The translations under genes and the position numbers were made by a program. From the IMG/VR virus record IMGVR_UViG_3300010300_005275, positions 1-24,625 of that record: a stretch of 24,625 nt of DNA. One strand, given 5' to 3'. This DNA comes from a virus. The notes under the pieces are model-generated. The model was given only the letters and a program-made list of their open reading frames with translations, did no database searches and was not told where the DNA came from. Positions 1 through 24,305 of the stretch are shown here, one piece after another; position 1 is the stretch's first letter; every line of letters starts with the position of its first letter.

Positions 1-966
1 ATAGCTTTAATTAGCCAAGAGCTTTGTTTGTTTGACATGAAACTTTTGCCACCAGACTTAGCCAAATCAGATATTGAATTTTCTATTGAGGGTAAGAATA
101 TCAGATATGGTTTAAATAGTATCAAAGGTGTATCTGAAAAAACATTGGAAAATGTTGTTGAGTTTAATAAATCACAATTAATAGAACAAAATAAATATGA
201 TGTGTTCTTAACAGCTAAAGATTCTGGCATCAATATTGGTATACTATCTGGCTTGATACAAGGTGGTATGATGGACTCTTTTTGTGATAGCTCTAGCGGT
301 GTGCCAAATCGTTGTAGGCTTGTACTAGAAGCTCAATCTTTTAACCTACTTACAGATAGAGAAAAAAGAAACTTCACACAATTAGGTCAAAAGTTCAACT
401 ATGACATACTAAACTCCATAGCTTCAGTTAGAAAAGAAGCTTGGCCAGCAGATGACGGTAGACCATTAATGAAAGACTCTAGGTTCAAAACATTTAAAAG
501 AGATTATGATAAATACCGCCAAATATACGACAAAAATAAAGAGCATTTAGTCTTTGCTAATTGGTTCTTTGAGCGTAAATACCTAGGGTACAGCCATTCC
601 AATGAGATTAAAAACGTTTTTCAAGACACCCAAAATCTTGTAAATAGTTTAGAATTGAAATCCATAGACCAAAATGACCGTGTAAAGTATGTTGGTGTTG
701 TGACAGATTGTGTATCTAGAACAAGCAGAGCGGGCAATAAATACATGAGAGTCGAGATACAAGACGATTATGGCAAAATTAATTTCATGATGACTAACAA
801 TAGAAGATCAGCTACTTTAGATAATTATCTAAATGAGGGTGGTAAAAAACCCAAAGAAGGTCAAATTGTTTTCATTTATGGCACTAAAGGTGAAGATATT
901 ATCTTTGGTGAAAAAATAAACATTCTAGATGAAAAAATCTATACAAGATTATCTGAAATTAAATGA
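1..966 (+). CDS. dnaE: DNA polymerase III alpha subunit (DnaE-like), C-terminal part, 5'-truncated by window edge
   Basis: Open from base 1 with no start in view, so this is the C-terminal third of a larger protein. The first visible residues match the DnaE finger/HhH region: KLLPPDLAKSDIEF followed by IRYGLNSIKGVSEKT, the classic 'GL.aIKGvg' segment. Next comes the HhH-like stretch LSGLIQGGMMDSF, then ERKYLGYSHS, which corresponds to the 'E.E.LG.Y.s.HP' segment before the OB fold. An OB-fold (tRNA-anti) domain follows: YVGVVTDCVSRTSRAGNKYM, then 'VEIQDDYGKINF'. It should be the catalytic subunit of the phage replicase. The protein ends about 50 residues after the OB core, so the tau-binding C-terminal domain of the E. 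coli enzyme appears absent. The TGA stop overlaps the ATG of the downstream Clp-like gene (ATGA), implying coupled translation. Family assignment is firm; the polymerase active site lies outside the window. Confidence 0.9.
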   Translation: MALISQELCLFDMKLLPPDLAKSDIEFSIEGKNIRYGLNSIKGVSEKTLENVVEFNKSQLIEQNKYDVFLTAKDSGINIGILSGLIQGGMMDSFCDSSSGVPNRCRLVLEAQSFNLLTDREKRNFTQLGQKFNYDILNSIASVRKEAWPADDGRPLMKDSRFKTFKRDYDKYRQIYDKNKEHLVFANWFFERKYLGYSHSNEIKNVFQDTQNLVNSLELKSIDQNDRVKYVGVVTDCVSRTSRAGNKYMRVEIQDDYGKINFMMTNNRRSATLDNYLNEGGKKPKEGQIVFIYGTKGEDIIFGEKINILDEKIYTRLSEIK

Positions 967-2357
967 CCGACTTTTCTAGTTACAACTTAACTCCTTCAGC
1001 AAAAAAAAGCTTAATAAAAGCTCAAGAAATAGCTCTTAGCTACAAACATCTCAAGGTTATAGATATACACTTACTGTATGCTTTACTTCAAGCGCAAAAT
1101 GTAAACATAAAATTTGCTATGGAAATTAATGGTTGGATGCCAGAGGGTTTTGAAGCAGCATTAGAGTTAGTGTTAGAACAATACAAAGAGCCAAAAAGAA
1201 AATACAAAGTCTATGCTCCAGAAATTTTTGAAATTTTAGACTCAGCTCAAAAATTAGCAAAAAGACATAAAGATGACTTTGTTGGTGTAGATCACATTTT
1301 AGTTAGCTTGTTAGACCAAAGGGCTGAATTAAGATCTTTTTTTGTGGGCCTACAAGTAGATATTCCTAAGTTTCTTACTGTTCTGCTTTATGTAATGAAA
1401 AATGGTATATCCTCATTTACGCCACCACCCATGGTTGAAATTACAAATCAATCTGCAGTTGCCCAACCTCAAGCCAAAACAAAACAAAACATAACCGATT
1501 GGTGTGAAGATATAAACAAAACCATAGAAGACAGAGGAACTTTCGAAATTTTTGGTAGAGAAAAAGAGACAGAAAGATCTTTTGAAATTTTGTTAAGAAA
1601 AAATAAAAGTAATATTATTTTGGTTGGAGAAGCTGGTGTCGGTAAAACAGCAATCGTAGAAGGTCTAGCTGAAAAGATAATACAAAAAAAATGCCCAAAA
1701 TTTCTACAGAATAAAAAAATTCTTTCTTTGGACATGACATCTGTTCTAGCTGGTACGATGTATCGTGGTCAAATGGAAGAGAAAGTGAAATCAATTATAG
1801 ATGAGATATCTAATAATGACGATTATATTCTCTTTATAGATGAGATACATACTATCGTTGGTGCTGGTAGTTCTGAGGGTGGTTTAGATTTGGCCAATAG
1901 TTTAAAACCAGTTTTATCTAGGGGTGGTTTCGCTTGTATAGGAGCTACCACTAAAGATGAATACTTAAAGTATTTTAAGGGCGACTCCGCACTAAATCGT
2001 CGTTTTGAAAAAATAGACGTGTTAGAACCATCAAAAGAACAAACTTTAGAGCTTCTAAAAAAAGCAAAGAGTTCGTATGAAAAATTCCACAACGTAAAAT
2101 TTACTTCTAGCATTTTGTCTAAAATCATTGACCTCTGCGCTGAGTATTTACCAGAGAAAAAATTTCCAGACAAAGCTTTTGATATTCTAGATGAAGCTGG
2201 TGCTAAATCAAGAATACTTTTTTCAGACAGCAAAGAACAAAAAAAGATTGACATTGAGCTAATATATGGTATATTTGCACAGAAACTTAATACTAACATC
2301 GAAAACGTTAGAAAAAATACAAACATAAATGTAACCAATAAAATAGGATTTTTATGA
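963..2357 (+). CDS. Clp-family AAA+ ATPase, N-domain plus single D1-type AAA module
   Basis: 464 residues resembling the N-terminal half of ClpA/ClpB/ClpC. Residues about 5-140 hold two Clp_N-type helical repeats (NLTPSAKKSLIKAQEIA, then VYAPEIFEILDSAQKLA). The AAA module follows: Walker A GEAGVGKTA at 222-230, pore-loop region GTMYRGQMEEK with its tyrosine, Walker B ILFIDEIHTI (D293, E294), sensor region IGATTKDEY, arginine finger in LNRRFEK, and the small-domain signature KFPDKAFDILDEAGAKSR. It stops there. Bacterial ClpA/B have a second AAA module, which in ClpA carries the ClpP-binding loop, so this protein is unlikely to feed ClpP directly. It could remodel phage or host complexes, or adapt substrates to the host Clp system. 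The ATG overlaps the dnaE stop and its own TGA overlaps the next ATG, so it sits in a replication operon. Family assignment is firm; the substrate is unknown. Confidence 0.9.
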   Translation: MTDFSSYNLTPSAKKSLIKAQEIALSYKHLKVIDIHLLYALLQAQNVNIKFAMEINGWMPEGFEAALELVLEQYKEPKRKYKVYAPEIFEILDSAQKLAKRHKDDFVGVDHILVSLLDQRAELRSFFVGLQVDIPKFLTVLLYVMKNGISSFTPPPMVEITNQSAVAQPQAKTKQNITDWCEDINKTIEDRGTFEIFGREKETERSFEILLRKNKSNIILVGEAGVGKTAIVEGLAEKIIQKKCPKFLQNKKILSLDMTSVLAGTMYRGQMEEKVKSIIDEISNNDDYILFIDEIHTIVGAGSSEGGLDLANSLKPVLSRGGFACIGATTKDEYLKYFKGDSALNRRFEKIDVLEPSKEQTLELLKKAKSSYEKFHNVKFTSSILSKIIDLCAEYLPEKKFPDKAFDILDEAGAKSRILFSDSKEQKKIDIELIYGIFAQKLNTNIENVRKNTNINVTNKIGFL

Positions 2358-2608: not shown

Positions 2609-3700
2609 ATGGATAGGAAAAGTAAATCTAAGTTTTTTTTAAAGAATAAGGTGTTTATAGACTCAGACGGGATATTCATATCCTCCTCAGAAAAAGACTT
2701 TTTGATTGATTTATTAAGATCTAGTAGGGCATTTAGGATTAAATTTCAAGCTGTTTCCGCGGTTAAACAAAGCTTAGAAATATTTAAAATGTCTGGTGAT
2801 TACGATTCTTACACATTTAATTACGCTGGCAAAAAATATATTTTAAAAATTAATGAAAATAGCAATCCTGCCGTATTACAAAAAGAATTTGATGCTTTAA
2901 ATATATTCTACAATAAAGGAATTTGTCCCAAACCCGTAGTCTTTTTTACAAAAGATGAGTGTTCTATTTTAATTACATCTTATGAAAATGGAGAAAGCTA
3001 CCAATCTTTAGGTAGAGACAGTTTTCTTTACAACTTAGAGGGATTTGCGAAACATCTTTCATTTATGCACGAAACTCTTTTCGATGAAAAATTTGATCAA
3101 ACAAAAGAATACTTTGAATATATTATAGATACTTCTGATTTTGAAAAATTTTTGTCGTCTGAAAATATGAGTACGCTAAACTCTGATCCATTATTTGTAG
3201 GTTATCAAAAGTTAAAAGAAGAACTGATTTCAGATTTAAAAAAATTTTTAAATAATTACGAAAACAAAAAAGTTTCATTGTGTCATTTAGATTTAAAACC
3301 AACAAATATATTATTAAGAGATGGATTCTTTAAAATATGTAATTTCAAGGAGTCTTATAAAACCGATCCAATTTTTGATGTAATTGTTGCTGTAACGCAA
3401 AATGATTTACAAGGGGAATCAAAAACTTCATTTATTAAAACTTATTATGATAGCTTCGATTCCGAAAAACCTAGTTATGAAGAATTTTTAGAAAACTATA
3501 AGTCTTTAGAAAATATTTATTTAAAATTATTTTTGTTAAAAAAATTAAATGATAGGTTTTACGAACAGGCGTTGTACGAAATCGATAGACCATCTAAATA
3601 TCTTACTTGGATAGAAAACTACGAATCTATTGAATTATGGGTCAAAGAAAATGTTGGAGATTATTCTGATTTGATAGAAAATATTTTTTACGTTTATTAA
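2609..3700 (+). CDS. APH/choline-kinase-fold phosphotransferase-like protein with altered metal-binding motif
   Basis: 363 residues, the usual length of the aminoglycoside phosphotransferase/choline kinase superfamily. The N-lobe shows the beta-strand lysine in KKYILKIN, the alpha-C-like segment QKEFDALNIF, and the hinge-like CSILITSYENGES. The catalytic loop is HLDLKPTNILL (H226, D228, N233), a good match to the 'H.D....N' motif. The next motif, normally 'IDFE' or 'DW.', reads ICNFKES with N245 in place of the metal-binding aspartate, then TDPIFDVIVA in place of 'DP.yDla'. It may be a weakened kinase or a pseudokinase. A terminator and a promoter-like motif lie directly upstream, and the ATE-like gene starts 1 nt after its stop, so the two probably form a short transcript of their own. 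The substrate is not predictable from the sequence. Confidence 0.75.
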   Translation: MDRKSKSKFFLKNKVFIDSDGIFISSSEKDFLIDLLRSSRAFRIKFQAVSAVKQSLEIFKMSGDYDSYTFNYAGKKYILKINENSNPAVLQKEFDALNIFYNKGICPKPVVFFTKDECSILITSYENGESYQSLGRDSFLYNLEGFAKHLSFMHETLFDEKFDQTKEYFEYIIDTSDFEKFLSSENMSTLNSDPLFVGYQKLKEELISDLKKFLNNYENKKVSLCHLDLKPTNILLRDGFFKICNFKESYKTDPIFDVIVAVTQNDLQGESKTSFIKTYYDSFDSEKPSYEEFLENYKSLENIYLKLFLLKKLNDRFYEQALYEIDRPSKYLTWIENYESIELWVKENVGDYSDLIENIFYVY

Positions 3701-3701
3701 A

Positions 3702-4466
3702 ATGAAAATTTACTTTGATCATATTTGTGGCAAACAAGCAGATACTGATTTTATACATACTTTAGTTAGCGCCACGGTAGATAGAGAAGAAGAACAGGAA
3801 GCTTTAGATAATGGTTGGTGTCCATCTAATATATGGTACAAACAAGACACTAATTTTGTAAAAGAAAATAAAATTATATGGTATCAAAGTCGTCAAACTA
3901 GATTAGATTTAAACAAATATACAGAGAGCAAAAATGAAAAAAAAGCTTGGAAAAAGATAGCTAAATCTAATATTGATATAGAAATAACCACCAACCCAGA
4001 TTTTAAAAAATTATATAAAATTTATAAAAATTATGTAGGGTATAAGAATTTTTCCTCAGTTTTATCCCAAAAAGATTTTATAGAAGTTTACGAAAAAGGT
4101 AATCACATTTTTTTAATCTATGGAGATGTAGCCTTTAGCGTTGTGGAAAAAGTTGGACAAAGCTTGTTGGCTTATCAATTTTGTTGGGGTTATGAAGACA
4201 AGGTTTTGGGATTAGGTAGATTCTCCACATATAGAGAAATAAAACTAGCTAAAGATTTAGGTTTAAAATATTTATATCTTGGACCAAGCTATGAAAATCA
4301 TGGCAAATACAAAAGCACATTTCCAGGATTTGAGTTTTGGACAGGCCGTAAATGGTGTTCTGATGAATCAAAATATTTTTTCCTACTAAACCAAGACGAA
4401 GATATACAATCCATAGAAGATTTAACAAATTCTTACGATTCATTTTTTGATTCGTTTTCAGTATAA
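3702..4466 (+). CDS. Arginyl/leucyl-tRNA-protein transferase-like (ATE/Bpt superfamily)
   Basis: 254 residues, similar in length to bacterial Bpt. The C-terminal half follows the ATE/Bpt pattern closely: LGLGRFSTYREIKLAKDLGL, then KYLYLGPSY (Y190-G194), then KYKSTFPGFEFWTGRKW, equivalent to the family's 'SLGtyai..eI.lak.lgL.YlYLGYwI...kM.YKa.F.P.E.l..g.W'. The N-terminal half shows NGWCPSNIWYK and SRQTRLDL (63-70), corresponding to the 'GfRRsg...RP' and 'SRSQRR' segments. The CxxC cysteines seen in many ATE/Bpt N-domains are not present. Family members transfer an amino acid from aminoacyl-tRNA to a protein N-terminus, creating an N-degron. Here the substrate, and whether tRNA is used, are unknown. 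It follows the kinase-like gene by 1 nt, and its 3' end overlaps the convergent gene by 34 bases. Confidence 0.6.
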   Translation: MKIYFDHICGKQADTDFIHTLVSATVDREEEQEALDNGWCPSNIWYKQDTNFVKENKIIWYQSRQTRLDLNKYTESKNEKKAWKKIAKSNIDIEITTNPDFKKLYKIYKNYVGYKNFSSVLSQKDFIEVYEKGNHIFLIYGDVAFSVVEKVGQSLLAYQFCWGYEDKVLGLGRFSTYREIKLAKDLGLKYLYLGPSYENHGKYKSTFPGFEFWTGRKWCSDESKYFFLLNQDEDIQSIEDLTNSYDSFFDSFSV

Positions 4467-5089
4467 TTTAAATCAGTAAATTCTGTCATAAAAGAGTTAT
4501 CTGTGTATTTTACCCTTTTGTTCTCTACGCTATAAAAGTTTTGGTCTATTTCGTACCCAGGATTTTTAGTTAAAGGCTCTTCTACCCAAGCGTCATCATG
4601 CCATATAATTCTATTATTGGGATAAGCATAGAAATTACCATTTTGCATTTTAAACATATGTGCGCATTTATGTTCTGGGTGTTCTGAAAAATTAGTGTCA
4701 AGTATAGCTTTATTTTCCCAACCCCAGTCTATTGTAAACATATATTCTCCCCACTCTCTTTTGTTTGATGGGGTTATAAGTATTGCTCTAAGGCCTTTTA
4801 ATCTAGATCTGATACCAACGTCCACATACGGAGAAAAACAATCCCAATACATAGCCTCCTCCAATGGTACTGGATCGCACTCTTTCCAACATAAAGCTGT
4901 AATAGGTCTTCTTGTCCAATTAACACCATTATCTAAATAACACTCAAATAAAGGTACTCTTTTTTCCATTGATGTGACAGAATGAACATCACACATGGTA
5001 TATTCCTTATGTCCCTTTTTGTGATTGTATAAATATTCGTTTCTAATGAAACATGTAAAAGTGGGTAAATTGTGCGTTAAATAAGGCAT
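4433..5089 (-). CDS. conserved-looking phage protein of unknown function, lone reverse-strand gene
   Basis: 218 residues starting MPYLTHNLPTFTCFIRNEYL. Rich in Trp, Tyr, His and Asp, with several dense conserved-looking segments: HKKGHKEYTMCDVHSV, NGVNWTRRPITALCWK, MFTIDWGWENK, HPEHKCAHMFKMQNGNFYAY, NNRIIWHDDAWVEEP. From memory, very similar proteins occur as unannotated genes in marine phages, but I cannot check this. No transmembrane segment or signal peptide is apparent. The His/Cys/Asp-rich segments could bind metal, which is an inference. It is the only minus-strand gene in the left 9.6 kb. Its stop lies inside the 3' end of the ATE-like gene, and a 51-bp AT-rich divergent region separates its start from the next plus-strand gene. 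It therefore has its own promoter region. Confidence 0.88.
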   Translation of the reverse strand: MPYLTHNLPTFTCFIRNEYLYNHKKGHKEYTMCDVHSVTSMEKRVPLFECYLDNGVNWTRRPITALCWKECDPVPLEEAMYWDCFSPYVDVGIRSRLKGLRAILITPSNKREWGEYMFTIDWGWENKAILDTNFSEHPEHKCAHMFKMQNGNFYAYPNNRIIWHDDAWVEEPLTKNPGYEIDQNFYSVENKRVKYTDNSFMTEFTDLNYTENESKNES

Positions 5090-21055: not shown

Positions 21056-22138
21056 TTACCTACCAAATTTTTCTGTTCCTGGAAACCCACCAAACGGTAT
21101 GTGTTGTTTAAAGTTTATACCATCAGAATAGTCTTCGTTATAAAATCTTGCCTTACATGCATGAATGTTTTTTGAACAAGCGTCTTTAACCCAAGCGTCA
21201 CCTCTAAATTTTGGATGCGATGCGTTACTATTTGCTTCGTGTGCTAATTTACAAACATAGTAGACTGGAAACGCATCGTAATAATTACTGACACCTTGTC
21301 CAAGCTCCAGTTTGTTTGATTGCGTATAAACATAATCACCAACAGCATAATTTTGTCCAGTCTTCCACTTGCCTTTGGCTACCAAAACCCCATCATTAAC
21401 TCCGTCATAATGAACTGCGTTCCCTGTTTTATCAATCGGAAATATTTCTGGATTTAGGTGCCACTTACCATACGCCAAACCACTTTGAATCACAAAATTA
21501 TTATCTTCTAAAGTCGCTATTGGTCTATCCAACCCATCTCCTGTAGTTTCTGATTCATAACCATATAAACATCCCTCTCCTCTATAAACAAATGGGCAAT
21601 AGTTAGAACCTATCGTTCTACTTGGCACATAAACATTCTCCAATTCAAGGCTAGATACTAATTCCAATTCAACAAATAATTTATTTTCAGAAATCTTTCT
21701 ATTAACGAAAAACTTATCTTCGGAAACGACGGCATCTGGGTTAGCCGATCCAAAAGGATTTTTTGAGTTCGGAAAATTAACGTCATCTAAAAATTTAGCA
21801 AAAGTCCTTTTTCTAATTACTTTGGCTTTGTTTAGGTTGTCGTATTTTCTAAGTAAGGAAGAAAAATACATTCCAGCGTTTGAGAATTTGATTTTGGGTC
21901 TTGGTAGTTTTTGATTACCCAAAACTTCAAAACCATCAGTTTCTAAAGCTATTGGAAGGTATTCTTGACCATTAAAAACTATCGGTGTAAGAATACCATT
22001 ATTATTTGAGGAGTGAACGTAAATAATTTCTTGATTATCCTCTGAGTAGTTGTAGTATATAGCAAATAACTCTAAAAGTGAACTGGATTCCAATTCAGTT
22101 AAATGAGTCTTAAAATCTTGATTGATTCCCTTTGCCAT
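21056..22138 (-). CDS. gpL-like minor tail protein with Fe-S cysteines and an inserted carbohydrate-binding-like segment
   Basis: 360 residues. The pattern follows lambda gpL: ALETDGFEVLGNQKLPRPKI near the N-terminus, SRTIGSNYCPFVYRGEGCLYG in the middle (C181, C190), KDACSKNIHACKARF (C321, C328), and the closing IPFGGFPG. The four cysteines match the Fe-S cluster ligands of gpL. Between the two cysteine pairs lies an insertion of about 110 residues. Residues 250-318 (KWKTGQNYAVGDYVY, PVYYVCKLAHEA, FRGDAW) have the layout of CBM5/12 chitin-binding domains. The protein forms part of the tail hub that joins the tape measure to gpJ. It is the first gene of the minus-strand tail-tip operon in this window, and its start lies 2 bases from the divergent plus-strand gene. 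Confidence 0.88.
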   Translation of the reverse strand: MAKGINQDFKTHLTELESSSLLELFAIYYNYSEDNQEIIYVHSSNNNGILTPIVFNGQEYLPIALETDGFEVLGNQKLPRPKIKFSNAGMYFSSLLRKYDNLNKAKVIRKRTFAKFLDDVNFPNSKNPFGSANPDAVVSEDKFFVNRKISENKLFVELELVSSLELENVYVPSRTIGSNYCPFVYRGEGCLYGYESETTGDGLDRPIATLEDNNFVIQSGLAYGKWHLNPEIFPIDKTGNAVHYDGVNDGVLVAKGKWKTGQNYAVGDYVYTQSNKLELGQGVSNYYDAFPVYYVCKLAHEANSNASHPKFRGDAWVKDACSKNIHACKARFYNEDYSDGINFKQHIPFGGFPGTEKFGR

Positions 22139-22140
22139 AT

Positions 22141-22683
22141 ATGATATTACACCAAAAATACGAAAATTTAAGTAAGTATAAGATACTAAAATATAAATGG
22201 TCTTTTTTCCCAGAAATAGTACATATTTTTAAAAAATTCCAAAAACATGCCCAAATTTCCTCGTTGTTAAATAAAAACTTAAGTTTGGACTCCGCAATTT
22301 ACGATGAATTCATAAAAAATGAGCTAGAATCAATCATTTTAAAAAATAAAGCTACTTATGTGGTCAAAGATATGGAGAGAGGTTGTATATTTTCCGCTTA
22401 CATGTTTTCCGTAGATATTGTCGATAAACCAAGCGTAGAATTGCAAATAGGATTCAAAGACCCAGATTATACCGCAAACAAGATTGGTGTTACCTCTCAC
22501 AAAGAATTAATTGAGCAAGTTAAAGTCGACCTAGATAGAGAGAATATGTTTTCTGTTTTAATGCATAGAAAAAGATATGATAGCTATTTAAAGTATATGC
22601 AAAAACATTTTGGTGTAAAGGTAATTGCGGTTGATGAATTAGGTAGATATATAGTAAAATATCCAAATTATGAAAGAGATTAA
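22141..22683 (+). CDS. hypothetical small protein, possible GNAT-like fold, paralogue 1
   Basis: 180 residues from the ATG at 22141 (a TTG nine bases upstream is less likely as it would overlap gpL's start). The C-terminal region MHRKRYDSYLKYMQKHFGV and GRYIVKYP resembles the end of the third protein of this cluster (TKRENYDKYTNYMLKTF, then ETYIKIKY). This layout, a beta strand then 'Y..Y....F' and a final strand, is reminiscent of the GNAT fold. The acetyl-CoA loop R/QxxGxG/A is not visible, so acetyltransferase activity is unproven. The ATG is 2 bases from the ATG of gpL on the other strand. The stop overlaps the next gene by 14 bases. Confidence 0.75.
   Translation: MILHQKYENLSKYKILKYKWSFFPEIVHIFKKFQKHAQISSLLNKNLSLDSAIYDEFIKNELESIILKNKATYVVKDMERGCIFSAYMFSVDIVDKPSVELQIGFKDPDYTANKIGVTSHKELIEQVKVDLDRENMFSVLMHRKRYDSYLKYMQKHFGVKVIAVDELGRYIVKYPNYERD
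22144..22158 (-). promoter_or_regulatory. Candidate phage promoter / start-proximal motif, site B
   Basis: On the minus strand this reads TTTTTGGTGTAATAT and ends 5 bases before the gpL-like ATG. It matches site A (2589-2603) at 14 of 15 positions, with the same spacing to the start codon. It lies inside the first codons of the divergent plus-strand gene, so it is preserved despite coding constraint on the other strand. Promoter function is inferred. Confidence 0.5.
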
Positions 22684-23203
22684 AAATTACGAACACGGTT
22701 TTACAAAAAAGACAGATCGGGAAGCTATAAGAGCTATGGCTAAAGTTTTTTTTGAAACTGATTATGGTGATGATTTTGACGCTATAGAAGACCCTGTCCA
22801 AAGAGCTAACGACTTAGAAGAAATTTGCGAAGAAGTTTCCCAATCAGCTATTCAAAATAAAGAACAAGTTTCTTTTGTGGCTAGAGATTCCGAGAGCGGT
22901 GATATTTTGGGGTTTTTGGCTGTCGAAAGTTTTAAGAGAAATTCAGTAATGATTAATTGGATTATAACAAATAAAGAGTACAAAGTATCTTTGATTTATA
23001 AAGATTTCTTAATTAAAGCCATGCAATATATAATTGGGTATTTTGGTCGCAAAAAGATTTATATTAGAATGACCGACCGAGATCAAAAGGGAGCTTCTTA
23101 TTTCAGAAGAACTTTTCCAACTAGAACTATAGCTTCTGAGCCTTTTAGCTATATGGAAATAGATTGGTCTAAATATTTCTTTGAAAATAATATACAAATT
23201 TAA
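22670..23203 (+). CDS. hypothetical small protein, possible GNAT-like fold, paralogue 2
   Basis: 177 residues. The middle reads SFVARDSESGDILGFLAVES, a strand-turn-strand typical of GNAT beta hairpins ('v.ad...g.ivGf....'). The rest of the pattern is YKVSLIYKDFLIKAMQYIIG (long helix), KKIYIRMTDRDQ, SYFRRTFPTR and FSYMEIDW. The order is the same as in the proteins before and after it, suggesting divergent paralogues. The usual R/QxxGxG/A acetyl-CoA loop is not evident. The gene overlaps the previous one by 14 bases, and the sulfotransferase ATG follows its TAA directly, so it belongs to one transcript with them. The substrate is unknown. Confidence 0.75.
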   Translation: MKEIKNYEHGFTKKTDREAIRAMAKVFFETDYGDDFDAIEDPVQRANDLEEICEEVSQSAIQNKEQVSFVARDSESGDILGFLAVESFKRNSVMINWIITNKEYKVSLIYKDFLIKAMQYIIGYFGRKKIYIRMTDRDQKGASYFRRTFPTRTIASEPFSYMEIDWSKYFFENNIQI

Positions 23204-23806
23204 ATGCAATTTGAAAACAAAGTATGTTTTTTTCGTATACCCAAAAATGCCAGCACATCTATTTACGAGCATTTGGGCGATAAAAATATAATACGAGATG
23301 AAAATTTAAAAAAATTATTTAAAAAAAATAGATTTCATAATATTTTTGCTCCATCCCATTGTAAGGTATCCGAAGCTATAGAGTGTTTAGGTCAAGAAAT
23401 ACTATTACTACCTTGTTTTGCGGTGTGCAGAAATCCTTTTGACAGAATGGTATCTCAATATTTCTTTTGTCAACAAAATGATTTTATAAATAAAACTTTT
23501 ACTTCTTTTAATAACTTTGTAGATTTTTGTTTGAAAGAAAAAAGCATCGCTTCAATGAGCCAAAGCGAATATTTAGATATTCCAAGCAAGGTGTCGATTT
23601 TGAAATTCGAAAACCTACAAGAAGATTTTAAAAATTTTCTTTTCAACTACAATGTTATAGATATTCCAGTTAATTTACCTCAAAAAAATAAATCTTCACA
23701 CAATAAATATCAAAATTACTACACAAAAGAAACAGAAAAAAAAGTTTTAGATTTGTGGCACGAAGATTTTCAAAGATTTAATTACTCAACCAATGTACAA
23801 GGTTAA
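23204..23806 (+). CDS. PAPS-dependent carbohydrate sulfotransferase-like protein (sulfotransferase family 2 type)
   Basis: 200 residues. The 5'-phosphosulfate-binding loop is RIPKNASTSIYEHLG (K14, S17, S19), and the 3'-phosphate motif is VCRNPFDRMVSQYFF (R76, S84); together they define PAPS sulfotransferases of the carbohydrate (Golgi-type and bacterial) kind. Further matches are SILKFENLQEDF ('..ryE.l..D') and YTKETEKKVLDLWHEDFQRF, the family's C-terminal 'Y....v..ly..Df..f'. It would transfer sulfate from PAPS to a sugar hydroxyl in the cytoplasm. Possible targets are a glycan made with the GT4/GT9 enzymes, or a tail or host-surface sugar; this is inference. It starts right after the paralogue-2 stop and overlaps paralogue 3 by 14 bases. 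Confidence 0.87.
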   Translation: MQFENKVCFFRIPKNASTSIYEHLGDKNIIRDENLKKLFKKNRFHNIFAPSHCKVSEAIECLGQEILLLPCFAVCRNPFDRMVSQYFFCQQNDFINKTFTSFNNFVDFCLKEKSIASMSQSEYLDIPSKVSILKFENLQEDFKNFLFNYNVIDIPVNLPQKNKSSHNKYQNYYTKETEKKVLDLWHEDFQRFNYSTNVQG

Positions 23807-24305
23807 AGAATACATTATTAGAAAATACGAAACAAGAGATTTTACTAAAATTTGTAATTTTATATGTAAGTTTCAAAAAAAAGCTAAACTTATTGGTATT
23901 TCAGATACTGAAAATATGCTATCAGCCAGGAACAAAAGAATACAAACAGAAAATTTTCTCAAAGAGTATGAGGCTAGTAGATTTCATAAATATGTTGCGG
24001 TTAACACCGAAACTAATGATATATTTCTATATTGCGTTTTCGTAAAAGTTGGTGATTCACATCAATTAAAATTCACGGTAAAAAATCCAGATTGTCTATT
24101 GCAAAAAATTATTGTTAGAGCATTTAAAGAAATAATTAATCAATTTTGTGCTGTTAATCAAGTGAAAGAGCTTTATTCGCCACTTACAAAAAGAGAAAAC
24201 TACGATAAATATACAAATTATATGCTTAAAACATTCGATACCGAGCAGGTTGAATCAAACGAAACATATATAAAAATAAAATACAATATTCCGCTTGACA
24301 TTTAG
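23793..24305 (+). CDS. hypothetical small protein, possible GNAT-like fold, paralogue 3
   Basis: 170 residues starting MYKVKEYIIRKYETRDFTKI, an opening like 'iR.y...D...i..f' of GNAT proteins. Then come a helical segment (LSARNKRIQTENFLKEYEA), HKYVAVNTETNDIFLYCVFV, QLKFTVKNPDC, a long helix (LLQKIIVRAFKEIINQF), LYSPLTKRENYDKYTNYML, and ETYIKIKYN. The last two segments resemble those of paralogue 1. No clear acetyl-CoA loop. It overlaps the sulfotransferase by 14 bases and is the last gene of that chain; a promoter-like motif and a small gene follow after 24 bases. Coding is well supported; enzymatic activity is not. Confidence 0.75.
   Translation: MYKVKEYIIRKYETRDFTKICNFICKFQKKAKLIGISDTENMLSARNKRIQTENFLKEYEASRFHKYVAVNTETNDIFLYCVFVKVGDSHQLKFTVKNPDCLLQKIIVRAFKEIINQFCAVNQVKELYSPLTKRENYDKYTNYMLKTFDTEQVESNETYIKIKYNIPLDI

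Follow-up and report, generated by a model that had tools for sequence, protein, structure and literature searches.

ATE and Bpt enzymes transfer tRNA-borne amino acids to proteins, and the locus described here raises the question of what a virus does with a protein of this kind. The gene lies in IMG/VR record IMGVR_UViG_3300010300_005275, of which we analyzed positions 1 to 24,625, a stretch of 24,625 nt of viral DNA called the window below (Table 1). An earlier note made from the letters of the window had proposed a phage-encoded ATE/Bpt-like aminoacyl-tRNA-protein transferase with a possible new acceptor, perhaps serving a phage-made N-degron route. The frame is a real gene, as its start is conserved throughout the family alignment (M-x-[IL]-[FY]-F-D-H, and MK[IL][FY]FDH in the close members) and the dN/dS of 0.04–0.17 among the close relatives compared indicates purifying selection. 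The C-terminal motifs quoted in the note are all present in the window protein and SRQTR is indeed retained in the N-terminal half, with R64 and R67 being invariant in the family alignments. The other invariant residues are F5, H7, G38-W39 and W60 (window numbering), and GFEFWTG is nearly universal.

Table 1: Features of the window around the ATE-like gene.
Feature	Position	Strand	Details
Clp-like ATPase	963..2357	+	Clp_N and one AAA module, AAA_lid_9; no D2
APH-type kinase-like gene	2609..3700	+	ends 1 bp before the ATE-like gene
Probable ATE/Bpt-like aminoacyl-tRNA transferase gene	3702..4466	+	254 aa, ATG at 3702 to stop at 4466
F5-D6-H7, signature of the N-domain in the viral family	3714..3722	+	no variation at F5 and H7 in the wide alignment
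WYQSRQTR	3879..3902	+	W60, R64 and R67 invariant; aligns with Bpt CxACxxxRI, cysteines gone
Basic helix, residues 77-88	3930..3965	+	secondary structure of the model; putative counterpart of ATE1 helix alpha-f
ATE_C core, residues 161-218, CWGYEDKVLGLGRFSTYREI...YLGPSYENHGKYKSTFPGFEFWTGRKW	4182..4355	+	Pfam match, family alignment, profile
PM partner protein, phrog_3704	4433..5089	-	convergent; its 3' end and that of the ATE-like gene share 34 bp (4433-4466)

By class the window protein is very probably an ATE/Bpt-like aminoacyl-tRNA transferase, which is well supported both by profiles and by the full-length fold of its predicted model. The Pfam domain PF04377 (ATE_C) matched the window ORF with an E value of 1.9e-6 (28.9 bits versus a gathering cut-off of 25) and was found in 23 of the 23 family members scanned at E<=0.1, the best match reaching 1.4e-11; PF04376 (ATE_N) was found neither in the window nor in any of these 23 members. 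Seven arginyltransferase models were the best matches in NCBIfam (top 5.7e-11), all of them far under their own cut-offs, with 42.3 bits at best versus the 170 set for the arginyltransferase equivalog. Using the profile of the viral family as query against the PDB, ATE1 chains were the only matches (8e3s, 1.1e-7), and in hhalign the family aligned with 112 cellular Bpt proteins from bacterial genomes at 98.7% (E 2.6e-16) over 159 columns. This alignment covers viral residues 64-222 and opens right after the position of the Bpt CxxCxAC motif.

The AlphaFold2 model of the window protein (pLDDT 78.7, pTM 0.80, low confidence in the N-terminal 50 residues) superimposes on human ATE1 with a Z score of 16.4 over 228 residues and along the full chain 1-254, the N-terminal 50 residues again being of low confidence. 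MprF and FemX score lower (Z 12-13 over 143-195 residues) and plain acetyltransferases rank below them. The top 50 Foldseek matches listed are aminoacyl-tRNA transferases throughout, with LFTR (TM 0.40-0.43) again under ATE1. In these comparisons ATE1 outranks the FemX-like and plain GNAT folds, a confident placement in which would have refuted the earlier note, and the family retains its basic tRNA helix.

With ATE1 (8tzv, 7wfx, 8e3s) the viral protein shares the full-length fold, the WD...LGK...YLG...YK core and the basic helix preceding the GNAT core, but it is shorter, has neither the CxxC...CC metal cluster nor the eukaryotic variable domain, shows only 16-18% identity and carries the invariant FxH, W60/R64/R67 and GFEFWTG as features of its own. 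The Bpt leucyltransferase (NCBIfam PRK01305, ‘arginyltransferase’) has the length, ATE_C, the basic helix and the alignable region 64-222 in common with it, whereas the ATE_N half of Bpt with GFRRS and CxxCxAC is not recognizable in the viral protein, whose family is found only in viruses. LFTR (Aat), FemX, L-PGS/MprF and Sba18/Sbb17, which are GNAT-fold aminoacyl-tRNA transferases with diverse acceptors and serve as a model for acceptor switching, are structurally less similar and match part of the chain only. Because the metal cluster, an ATE_N domain and a score above the equivalog cut-off were looked for and not found, we do not file the protein as ATE1 or Bpt and regard it as a variant of the ATE/Bpt kind that is confined to viruses.

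What has been kept and what has been lost seem to differ between the two sides of the reaction. The stretch of residues 72-92 has a net charge of +3 to +8 in 23 of 23 members, and the helix 77-88 within it may correspond to helix alpha-f of yeast ATE1, which enters the groove of the tRNA acceptor stem (PMC10115844). The LG...YL...YK core is retained as well. ATE1 carries a metal-cluster motif CX2CXnCC (PMC10115844), which was not found in the viral family alignment. As the earlier note had stated for the CxxC pair of the N-domain, the cysteines are gone, with no conserved cysteine column in the whole family, and the viral alignments show GW-P...WY in place of the GFRRS...CxxCxAC motif of Bpt. 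As the tRNA helix and the core are kept and the cysteines and GFRRS are lost, the donor side looks conserved and the acceptor side seems to have been remodelled, which lends the suggested new acceptor indirect support.

Calling the enzyme phage-encoded, as the earlier note did, turned out to be an understatement. Relatives are encoded by at least 543 IMG/VR stretches, and the family is restricted to viruses, namely marine viruses, being absent from the bacterial genomes searched: scanning 85,000 cellular genomes with a pattern gave no member, and when 385 alphaproteobacterial genomes were searched with the profile, each positive genome had a single weak match of 49.5 bits or less, in most cases beginning around residue 61. 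The three top-scoring ones proved on inspection to be host Bpt that have GFRR and the cysteines. Searches of cultured phages with three long and one short query gave no convincing ATE-like gene, with one weak and partial match (E 0.05) in an unannotated record, and a search of plasmids gave no match. PADLOC assigned neither the ATE-like protein nor its neighbour PM to a defence system, and no relevant paper on a phage arginyltransferase was found in the literature searched. A quick tree places Bpt and the viral family as sister branches, with a very long stem of full support between them; the branches of the tree are long and the deep order within the viral family is unsure.

The constant partner of the ATE-like gene is PM. 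Among 116 distinct full-length members PM is the direct neighbour in 95, SpeD lies directly upstream in 14, neither is nearby in four and the contig end cuts the neighbourhood in three; in two of the 95 SpeD is found three genes upstream with PM in between. Tandem PM-ATE pairs mostly overlap by 4 bp (n=91) or 1 bp (n=88), together 179 of 189, with the other 10 at +3 bp, and these 189 include copies of one contig. Within one clade the pair occurs in both orientations, convergent in the window, L006, L007 and L060 and tandem on another backbone in L009 and L063, and PM remains 93% identical across this switch. Neighbourhood clustering placed the pair on several different backbones, and the distances of PM and the ATE-like protein correlate (r 0.78, 79 pairs). 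We take the adjacency across orientations and backbones as a functional link and not as hitchhiking, and as the ATE-like gene is almost always found beside PM, the phages seem to use this chemistry for an undescribed purpose of their own.

PM itself gave no Pfam match, its profile found nothing convincing and no solved relative in the PDB, and its structure model has a pLDDT of 33. The same protein family (phrog_3704) is annotated as purM or ferredoxin in cyanophages and pelagiphages (PMC3037559, PMC9599517). Neither identity has profile support, and a role as auxiliary gene of purine synthesis looks unfounded. About 110 cyanophages and pelagiphages in culture have phrog_3704 but no ATE-like gene, so that PM does not need modifying; no divergent ATE-like gene was hidden beside PM in six of the cultured phages.

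The best reading, which we hold tentatively, is a phage aminoacyl-tRNA transferase working together with PM on an acceptor specific to the phage cassette. The GNAT-fold protein of the ATE/Bpt branch would be an active enzyme with an aminoacyl-tRNA as donor and would most likely take its amino acid from an aminoacyl-tRNA of the host; we assume a host tRNA because no tRNA genes were found in the window, nor next to the majority of its relatives. An amide would then be formed between the tRNA-borne amino acid and an amine of the acceptor, for which PM or something bound by PM would be the first candidate, and not host proteins destined for degradation. Several observations count against this explanation, among them the low model confidence in the N-terminal 50 residues, the cultured phages that have PM and no ATE-like gene, and the four members with neither PM nor SpeD nearby. 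The N-terminus of PM (MPYL or MAYL) is not a usual ATE/Bpt acceptor, and the FxWDY motif, which has its D in most members, has G instead in the window and its closest relatives.

The genes found around some relatives suggest small amines as possible acceptors. In a SpeD-linked clade the gene immediately before the ATE-like gene is SpeD in 14 of 14 members, and the ATE-like gene is followed by phrog_10325 in most; this SpeD is 42-48% identical to pelagiphage SpeD, including that of HTVC201P, and SpeD homologues of pelagiphages may act as arginine decarboxylases, as the HTVC201P enzyme does (PMC9992855). One locus has the order SpeD-SpeE-PM-ATE (L072), and in the record of L060, which belongs to the clade of the window, about 5.7 kb separate the ATE-like gene from a SpeE-SpeD fusion of 413 aa (L480:583-1824). 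A short ATE-like subfamily (at least 230 stretches) of about 145 aa consists of the GNAT half only and aligns with the long form at E 9e-30 in hhalign. In 54 of its loci phrog_10325, common to this subfamily and the SpeD clade, is adjacent in 40, an amidinotransferase related to AGAT, SxtG and HsvA, with HxD and the GG-HC cysteine kept, is found within 37, and PM is adjacent in four; DUF6614 also occurs, and radical-SAM genes in some. These clusters are possibly phage-encoded biosynthetic clusters. It is unlikely, though conceivable, that the cassette as a whole is biosynthetic and delivers no degradation tag, comprising PM, SpeD/SpeE and phrog_10325 and, with the short form, the amidinotransferase and radical-SAM enzymes, so that an amino acid would be loaded from tRNA onto a polyamine, a guanidino small molecule or PM. 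A live but less likely alternative is a related explanation by analogy with FemX, L-PGS and Sba18, which transfer amino acids to non-protein acceptors: the acceptor might be a polyamine, agmatine or an amidino-polyamine and the product an aminoacylated polyamine-like compound. However, the window, like most PM-type records searched, has no SpeD (these are fragments), a search of 25 long-form records run without a positive control found no amidinotransferase, and the short subfamily, having no tRNA helix, may do something else. Because marine phages commonly carry SpeD, which in other places lies next to ribonucleotide reductase and precedes NrdA in HTVC201P, we regard the small-amine acceptor as a lead only.

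Two further explanations have to be weighed against an acceptor belonging to the cassette. Quite doubtful is a GNAT protein independent of tRNA, using acyl-CoA or being non-catalytic, that would act as a PM-associated factor. Weak Acetyltransf_6 matches in five of the 23 members, the widely missed NCBIfam cut-offs and the lost metal cluster are consistent with it, but the tRNA dependence of all the best Foldseek matches listed and the basic helix present in every member scanned are not; moreover, the acetyl-CoA loop shows, by reading, no conserved (R/Q)xxGxG/A motif, and GFEFWTG and YK are strongly constrained. The N-degron route of the earlier note, in which a destabilizing residue would be placed on host or phage N-termini for ClpAP or the phage Clp-like ATPase, is not supported and is unlikely. 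Besides the homology to ATE/Bpt, it could draw on the Clp-like ATPase in the backbone of the window, a ClpC-like gene a few genes away in L040 and a ClpP-like gene upstream in L072. The ATPase gene claimed in the window is real and has the N-domain, but it encodes only Clp_N and one AAA module: it aligns with residues 7-454 of 764 in phrog_4871, making it a half-length protein of Clp_N and D1, and a D2 module of the ClpAP type with ClpP docking was not found in it. The gene is conserved across the clade of the window and common only to phages of the same backbone. As a backbone gene without D2 it was set aside as support for an N-degron, and the neighbour that stays constant across unrelated backbones is PM. 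In addition, the neighbourhoods of the large PM-type clades, as clustered, contain no Clp genes, the GFRRS and cysteine features of the acceptor side are lost, and bacteria already possess Bpt.

If the reading of a transferase acting with PM on a cassette-specific acceptor is true, the small PM-ATE cassette of two genes would be the first described case of viral tRNA-dependent aminoacyl transfer of the ATE/Bpt type, as far as the papers searched show. It would also provide the first functional handle on a widespread gene of cyanophages and pelagiphages that is annotated purM and is now counted, without profile support, as an auxiliary metabolic gene of purine synthesis.

Several minor observations concern other neighbours. 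In most of the window's clade an APH/fructosamine-kinase-like gene immediately precedes the ATE-like gene; it is absent in L060. On the plus strand, positions 22132-24305 of the window hold in a row two small proteins of 183 and 170 aa that are related and fall into one cluster, a 177-aa protein with no Pfam match and a sulfotransferase-like protein, the latter called by reading. The SpeE-SpeD fusion at L480 is flanked by a small protein resembling that at 22132-22683 of the window and by a sulfotransferase-like gene, both also by reading. Clusters of phrog_10325, AGAT-like amidinotransferase, DUF6614 and radical-SAM genes are seen in L447, L451, L458, L467 and other short-form loci. Exceptions among the relatives that have no tRNA genes nearby are L115 with one tRNA gene and the jumbo record L068, a viral contig of 347 kb in which 15 tRNA genes (L068:1325-3224) lie upstream of a divergent PM-ATE pair, and in the SpeD-linked clade one phage contig has, according to ARAGORN, a tmRNA (L106:2631-3027) with the tag AKQKRIAC.
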